From positions 310,001-374,000 of the forward strand of contig NZ_VIWP01000002.1 in the NCBI RefSeq assembly GCF_007829835.1: a stretch of 64,000 nucleotides of DNA, given 5' to 3'. The notes under the pieces were generated by a model that saw only the letters and a program-made list of their open reading frames with translations, had not been told where the DNA came from and ran no database searches. The DNA is from Neorhizobium alkalisoli (GTDB lineage Bacteria > Pseudomonadota > Alphaproteobacteria > Rhizobiales > Rhizobiaceae). A program made the translations under genes and the position numbers. Below are positions 42,506 through 42,579 of this stretch, one piece after another. How positions within the stretch are numbered: the stretch's first letter is position 1; each line of letters begins with the position of its first letter.

Positions 42506-42579
42506 TCGGAATGGCGGGATTCGAACCCACGACCCCTTGACCCCCAGTCAAGTGCGCTACCGGGCTGCGCTACATTCCG
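42506..42579 (-). tRNA. tRNA-Pro(GGG), complete, carried by the island
   Basis: The minus strand folds as a cloverleaf: acceptor CGGAATG/CATTCCG with C1-G72 and A73 as in bacterial tRNA-Pro; D arm with CGCAGCCCGGTAGCGC; anticodon arm CTTGA-CTGGGGG-TCAAG with anticodon GGG; T arm GTGGG-TTCGAAT-CCCGC. CCA is not encoded. It reads CCC and CCU. D and anticodon arms are identical to the disrupted host copy at 42627-42684, but acceptor and T stems differ in compensating pairs, so it is an independent, functional gene, not a duplicate. It has its own terminator; the host tRNA promoter upstream may drive it. Confidence 0.93.

Follow-up and report, generated by a model that had tools for sequence, protein, structure and literature searches.

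An island inserted in a tRNA-Pro(GGG) gene of Neorhizobium alkalisoli carries an intact tRNA-Pro(GGG) gene that probably replaces the broken one

When a mobile element integrates into what appears to be the only copy of a tRNA gene, how does the host continue to obtain that tRNA? The question is raised by a 64,000-nucleotide stretch of Neorhizobium alkalisoli DNA (the window) on contig C2 of a 7.03-Mb draft genome (40 contigs, listed completeness 100%). Within the window, a 23.4-kb island (19188-42626) comprising a gin-like recombinase operon and defence cargo interrupts a host tRNA-Pro(GGG) gene within its T loop. The G+C content of the island is 55.3%, versus 59.8 and 60.0% in its flanks. 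The gin operon begins approximately 840 bases from attL and is followed by the cargo, in which the HamB-like helicase has a neighbour gene without assignment. The features of the locus are as follows:

19163..19187, minus strand: attL, host side; 3' part of the host tRNA-Pro(GGG) gene, from GGTTC to the T stem, acceptor and encoded CCA, which maps to the empty site in the genome G047
19188..19210, minus strand: left element arm, with ATATAA adjoining the core and an outer GTGAACA repeat at 19204-19210
20025..21368, plus strand: ginA-like tyrosine recombinase gene, 447 aa (PF00589, E 1.7e-11)
21365..23197, plus strand: ginB-like gene, 610 aa (weak Phage_int_SAM_5 match, under the cut-off)
23207..25315, plus strand: ginC-like gene, 702 aa (behind ginA and ginB in six genomes; no Pfam match)
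25302..25799, plus strand: ginD-like small gene, 165 aa
26010..41396, no strand given: cargo region, a defence cluster
26755-30042, in the cargo: HamB-like (Hachiman) helicase
31159-31911, in the cargo: YgjP-like peptidase
31911-38976, in the cargo: type I restriction R/S/M
39858-41396, in the cargo: IetA-like AAA ATPase
42433..42465, minus strand: terminator-like hairpin 3' of the island tRNA, weak (0.7 expected in shuffles)
42506..42579, minus strand: intact island tRNA-Pro(GGG) without encoded CCA (ARAGORN), the putative replacement gene
42580..42627, minus strand: attR, the right element arm (A, TTATACG, then TGTTCAC at 42601-42607), which forms the spacer separating the broken host gene and the island tRNA
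42628..42684, minus strand: 5' part of the host tRNA-Pro(GGG) gene, positions 1-57 (all 57 bases match the rejoined gene)
42685..42745, minus strand: region upstream of the 5' part, presumed to contain the host tRNA promoter (by eye, CTTGCG occupies the position of a -35 box)

When the two host halves (42628-42684 and 19163-19187) were rejoined, a tRNA with 21/21 pairs was obtained. In G047, a genome of the same genus without a GinB match, the two flanks of the window are contiguous with a 6-base overlap at the core: window 19155-19187 maps to G047 9747-9715, and window 42627 onward maps to G047 9720 downward. An intact tRNA-Pro(GGG) gene occupies that site in G047, and one was also found at the best match in three further genomes of the genus. 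Since the flanks are contiguous in G047 and the tRNA there is intact, the halves in the window represent one gene split by the island. At the attachment site of the element, inverted TATAA and TTATA arms flank the core, with outer TGAACA/TGTTCA repeats in most islands, and the T stem-loop of the target is likewise dyad-symmetric. The core common to element and target is GGTTC plus A/G, approximately 6 bases, with partly matching neighbours.

The single tRNA called by ARAGORN in the window is a tRNA-Pro(GGG) at 42506-42579 on the minus strand. The initial annotation had described it as intact and situated about 50 bases inside the right end of the island, and we found it to start at about 47 bases, with a first base C that pairs with the last acceptor G, followed by A, and with 21/21 cloverleaf pairs. 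Its CCA is not encoded. Also borne out was the earlier comparison with the disrupted gene: the D and anticodon arms of the island tRNA and the rejoined host tRNA are the same, and their 8 differing positions all lie in acceptor pairs 4-70, 5-69 and 6-68 and T-stem pair 52-64, with pairing kept throughout. The terminator ascribed to the island tRNA fared less well, as the hairpin is present (42465-42433) but shuffled sequences contain 0.7 such sites on average, making it a weak candidate.

To what extent is this tRNA under constraint? Across the nine island tRNAs described below (5 distinct sequences), 21/21 pairs are formed in 9/9; in the distinct sequences all 105/105 cells are paired, and 4 pairs are changed on both sides. 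Their covariation score was reached by 0/500 shuffles, and pairing fell to 30-44% in controls with slid partners. In pairwise comparison the island tRNA has a mean identity of 0.93, the broken host fragment 0.97 and the spacer 0.68, with 0.60 for the downstream and 0.62 for the upstream sequence. As the host fragment is conserved as well, conservation alone is no proof that the island tRNA functions; judged from these alignments, the compensatory changes carry more weight as a probable sign of function. Island tRNA and rejoined host gene have different acceptors in 7/8 genomes, and in Sinorhizobium saheli the island acceptor also differs from the host 5' strand; in Rhizobium sp. Leaf453 the island tRNA is identical to the rejoined host gene. 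CCA is not encoded in 8/9 island tRNAs, versus 50/51 other tRNAs of the window genome in which it is encoded.

Whether the host has another source of this tRNA was examined in the same draft genome, as had been suggested in the initial annotation. Among 52 tRNA matches, including the island copy, the other 51 were typed by ARAGORN in 43 stretches, and no second tRNA-Pro(GGG) was found among them; the proline tRNAs among them have the anticodons TGG (two genes) and CGG (one gene). Searching the 7.03-Mb draft assembly at the nucleotide level likewise returned no additional GGG copy. A wobble-reading tRNA-Pro(TGG) might cover CCC and CCU, as in Salmonella, and the GGG gene may therefore be non-essential. 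Elsewhere in this genome, a 17-kb contig (C24:13641-14161; L043) contains four tRNA genes (Met, Pro-TGG, Thr-TGT and Trp, the last without encoded CCA), a cluster that looks like a mobile tRNA array.

The genomes of 84,980 species were scanned for a pattern of two GACTGGGGGTC stretches 90-119 bases apart. This yielded 22 stretches, 8 of which have the same island arrangement, in Ochrobactrum sp. RH2CCR150, Oricola nitratireducens, Rhizobium sp. 16-449-1b, Brucella tritici (presumably an environmental isolate), S. saheli, Rhizobiales AFS031141, Rhizobium sp. Leaf453 and Rhizobiales AFS040727. Together with the window there are thus nine carriers, all draft assemblies, and the related islands recur in several other bacteria of soil and plants. 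In 9/9 the host fragment continues into GGTTC[A/G]TTATACG, and the 5'-to-5' spacing from host fragment to island tRNA is 103-107 bases; on this near-constant spacing, together with the att motif, we reject a chance tandem. Of the remaining stretches, four are natural pairs of intact tRNA-Pro(GGG) genes without islands, in Planctomycetes MAGs and an Olsenella MAG (L108, L110, L121, L125); one is an intact tRNA-Pro accompanied by a second copy left uncalled by ARAGORN (L109); and nine are chance matches, tRNA-like pieces (L116) or repeats of other kinds (L105, L107, L113, L116-L119, L124, L126).

The attL half was detected in 8/9 islands; that of S. saheli was looked for and not found. Rejoining the halves within each genome restored 21 pairs in 8/8, a result that is only moderately telling because several genomes have identical halves and 17/56 control joins, of a 5' half to the 3' half of another genome, also pair fully. 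No other intact GGG copy was found in 9/9 carriers at E 1e-9, with typing in the eight other carriers covering the better-scoring tRNA matches; four other full-length matches at this threshold are TGG or CGG, as are two weaker proline tRNA matches in Leaf453 (TGG and CGG). The attR motif with the outer TGTTCA arm occurs in 4/394 genomes of the family, all at tRNA-Pro(GGG) (the window, Leaf453, Oricola and AFS031141), versus 0 among the matches listed for the reversed attR control in these 394 genomes. A GAACA-type outer left arm is also present in Leaf453, Oricola, 16-449-1b, AFS031141 and AFS040727, and the left arms of Ochrobactrum (L145:2372) and B. tritici (L148:2920) are without it.

The island ends of Ochrobactrum and B. 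tritici are nearly identical, as are the spacers of Leaf453 and AFS031141, and the nine carriers are therefore not all independent. Since Ochrobactrum and B. tritici have spacer and tRNA in common while the sequence upstream of the host fragment differs, the tRNA travels with the island. Among viral contigs, the tandem pattern gave 3 stretches with 0 islands, and the attR pattern gave 5 stretches, all without a tRNA. The island right end matched 108 plasmid records, none covering 80% among the matches listed (best 10 of 108).

As judged from protein family matches, the identification as a recombinase is firm for ginA only: GinA is clear (PF00589), GinB is weak and GinC is without a match, and the trio is adjacent in six of the nine island genomes. 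Against NCBIfam, the ginA product gave only partial Xer-type matches (XerC/XerD) under the cut-offs; its R223, HDLRH 374-378, H406 and Y416 are invariant across 8 aligned rows. GinB of the window is 58% identical to that of Leaf453, the predicted model of GinC is poor (pLDDT 41), and ginD-like relatives lie behind ginC in Ochrobactrum and B. tritici (38-39% identity over 71 aa). All of ginABC were matched in 6/9 islands (window, Leaf453, AFS040727, Oricola, Ochrobactrum and B. tritici). In AFS040727 the operon lies 9.5 kb from attL and ginC (L156:17013-19127) has an in-frame stop inside the gene; in Oricola the operon (L074:14499-19832) is inverted relative to the window, with ginC nearest attL.

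The gin genes are incomplete, interrupted or unseen in 4/9 islands. The initial annotation had raised the case of relatives that have the island tRNA and lack the recombinases, and islands of this kind do occur: in S. saheli ginA alone was seen, and a single N some 120 bases past this gene may mark an assembly gap; AFS031141 has a 41-aa ginD-like scrap adjoining transposase-like frames beside attL, which we take to be IS66-type; and Rhizobium sp. 16-449-1b has no gin gene, both island ends meeting contig ends. Two of the nine islands thus look decayed and one is cut by contig ends. These islands nevertheless share the attR of the others, located at the same tRNA, and we therefore read them as decayed or incompletely assembled rather than as bearing independent tRNAs.

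How old is the association of gin genes and tRNA? GinA of the three tRNA-bearing gin lineages is approximately 28-38% identical, as distant as from the operon of G620, which has no tRNA near it. Given a divergence down to about 28% identity, the pairing would be either old, indeed ancestral, or passed between lineages as a module of the island end. A single clade of tRNA-bearing lineages was neither supported nor rejected by trees of GinA, GinB and GinC (the GinC tree including the AFS040727 row with its internal stop). The gin operons at other sites, in G102 and G620, have no tRNA in the 40 kb examined for each. In G620, which belongs to another family, a complete and symmetric att-like site (CATATAG-AGTTCG-CTATATG, its outer arms being GAACAC/GTTCAC; L177:11440-11520) lies about 690 bases before ginA with no tRNA nearby, and may represent either an attP in the free state or another kind of target. 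GinA matches were found in 5 of 397 genomes of the order and 2 of 385 of the class, the window genome included each time, with up to 4 candidates per genome scored among the matches listed, so that misses are possible. A GinA single-protein scan of 84,980 species genomes and a GinA alignment scan of viral contigs found no relative. Among plasmids, GinB matched 45 records, all below 60% identity among the best 15 of 45.

From these data we consider it very probable that a GInt-like island at the T loop of the single tRNA-Pro(GGG) gene carries a full replacement gene, which is most likely transcribed from the host promoter. The island would target the T loop of the single host gene, and after crossover there the right end would retain the host promoter together with 57 bases of the gene. 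Because the attachment core shares only about 6 bases with the target, integration is expected to cut the gene, with no restoration by identity. The element would then supply, from a position just within its right end, a tRNA-Pro(GGG) gene of full length. Integration would place this gene some 105 bases downstream of where the broken gene starts, and its transcription would most likely be driven by the host tRNA promoter trapped there. RNase P would release the island tRNA and the host CCA-adding enzyme would supply the CCA, a step supported by a PolyA_pol/CCA-adding family match in the window genome. Transcription from the host promoter, maturation, charging and host need of the island tRNA are steps that we infer. 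CTTGCG stands, by eye, at the place of the -35 box in 8/9 genomes and CTTGTC in Oricola; a consensus promoter scan found no promoter and left the presumed host promoter unflagged too. No terminator-like site was found between the host fragment and the island tRNA. When host fragment, spacer and tRNA are folded together in silico, the fragment is predicted to pair with the island tRNA and no cloverleaf forms (z -1.0). The proposal of the initial annotation that the element repairs the damage of its own insertion is supported by the only GGG copy found and by the same tandem in nine islands of nine genomes; its observation and interpretation stand, stronger than originally stated, as a recurrent trait of islands at this tRNA. 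Imprecise loss of the island would then presumably carry the cost to the host that it had envisaged.

Several other explanations of the arrangement were weighed. The tRNA T loop is a usual site for tyrosine recombinases (PMC8371274) and both halves of the host gene are retained, as would be expected of an ordinary tRNA-targeting element whose attP contains the tRNA 3' end and restores the gene on integration. At the right junction, however, GGTTC[A/G]TTATACG fails to continue the tRNA in 9/9 islands, ARAGORN calls no tRNA at either junction in the window, and the tRNA is truncated at attR in 9/9 and at attL in the 8/9 found, which leads us to reject restoration through attP identity as scarcely credible. 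A second view holds that the tRNA is cargo, like phage tRNAs, that aids the translation of island genes, with its likeness to the broken gene incidental. CCC and CCT account for 133/301 proline codons in 12 island genes versus 46/161 in 8 chromosomal genes, and the Oricola island contains a tRNA-Thr as well. Yet the island tRNA has the anticodon of the destroyed gene, at the same place and spacing beside attR in 9/9, and apart from the tRNA-Thr of Oricola no other tRNA was present in the island stretches examined, so that we regard this as highly improbable. The Oricola gene, a tRNA-Thr(TGT) at L100:11106-11182, lies far from the island ends.

We give equally little credence to the island tRNA being a decaying, non-functional leftover of an older insertion: although CCA is unencoded in 8/9 and the broken host fragment is equally conserved, 21 pairs are kept in 9/9 with compensatory changes, and the tRNA is the only GGG copy found and persists in islands that look decayed. 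Less remote, if still unlikely, is a promoter belonging to the island tRNA itself, situated in the spacer, from which the tRNA would be expressed in the excised circle too. In the window the space of 47 bases (across the nine, 41-45 beyond TTAT) just fits a promoter; against this, the spacer contains the att arms and is otherwise poorly conserved (mean identity 0.68), and the scan flagged no promoter-like site, although it missed the presumed host promoter too.

Replacement of the broken gene, with transcription from the host promoter, leads to a further reading that we hold tentatively, at somewhat less than even odds: the end of the island may be a conserved promoter-capture repair module, whose tRNA would stay unexpressed while the circle is free and be expressed only when integrated behind the host promoter, leaving the host dependent on the island end. 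Such a module would pay for insertion and make the host depend on keeping that end. The acceptor strands of island and host differ in 8/9 islands, and recombination between host fragment and island tRNA would therefore often yield a mispaired tRNA; if the module reading is true, this recombination would remove attR and tame the island. The S. saheli island, seemingly decayed yet with its tRNA kept, suggests such dependence as a hint.

How does this island compare with known systems? GInts, in the portions of PMC5385486 that describe them, have the gene order ginABCD and insert at an ABC transporter gene, ssb or intergenic sites, and an outward promoter is proposed to ease the damage of insertion; the word tRNA has 0 uses in the main text of that paper (Bardaji et al. 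2017). The island resembles the GInts so described in its small gene at one end, variable cargo and one specific insertion locus, and perhaps also in its three adjacent recombinase-like genes and short imperfect end repeats. The small gene behind ginC (165 aa, 25302-25799) takes the place of ginD, and the layout of operon at one end, cargo and short end is seen in the window, though not in every relative; the imperfect direct end repeats of 10-11 nt may correspond here to the core of about 6 bases with its partly matching neighbours. Whereas GInts, as presented there, would ease damage by an outward promoter, the island here would do so by a whole replacement gene. GInts with defence systems are known in E. 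coli (PMC10121019). Disruption of a tRNA gene is shared with pNBU2-type integration, which interrupts a Bacteroides tRNA-Ser gene of which most hosts have two (PMC6692515); the passage on that integration mentions no replacement, whereas the island here supplies a replacement tRNA-Pro(GGG). No case of a full replacement tRNA on an integrating element was found in searches of the openly licensed PMC literature, which does not prove that none exists. Finally, the island has in common with classical tRNA-integrating elements, as outlined in the relevant part of PMC8371274, a tyrosine recombinase, a dyad-symmetric T stem-loop crossover and retention of the host promoter side. Those elements reconstitute an intact tRNA gene after integration, with the original promoter used with very few exceptions. 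Such reconstitution is held to be what spares the host. In contrast, attP identity restoring an intact tRNA at the junction was not seen here: where classical elements, on that account, rebuild the gene at the junction, the island has about 6 bases of identity and a separate full gene. This would constitute a second solution to the problem of tRNA insertion, in which an entire replacement gene, in most cases diverged, is supplied at an almost constant position. It would release the recombinase from any need for long identity with its target, carry tRNA genes from one genus to another, and leave host translation dependent on a mobile element.
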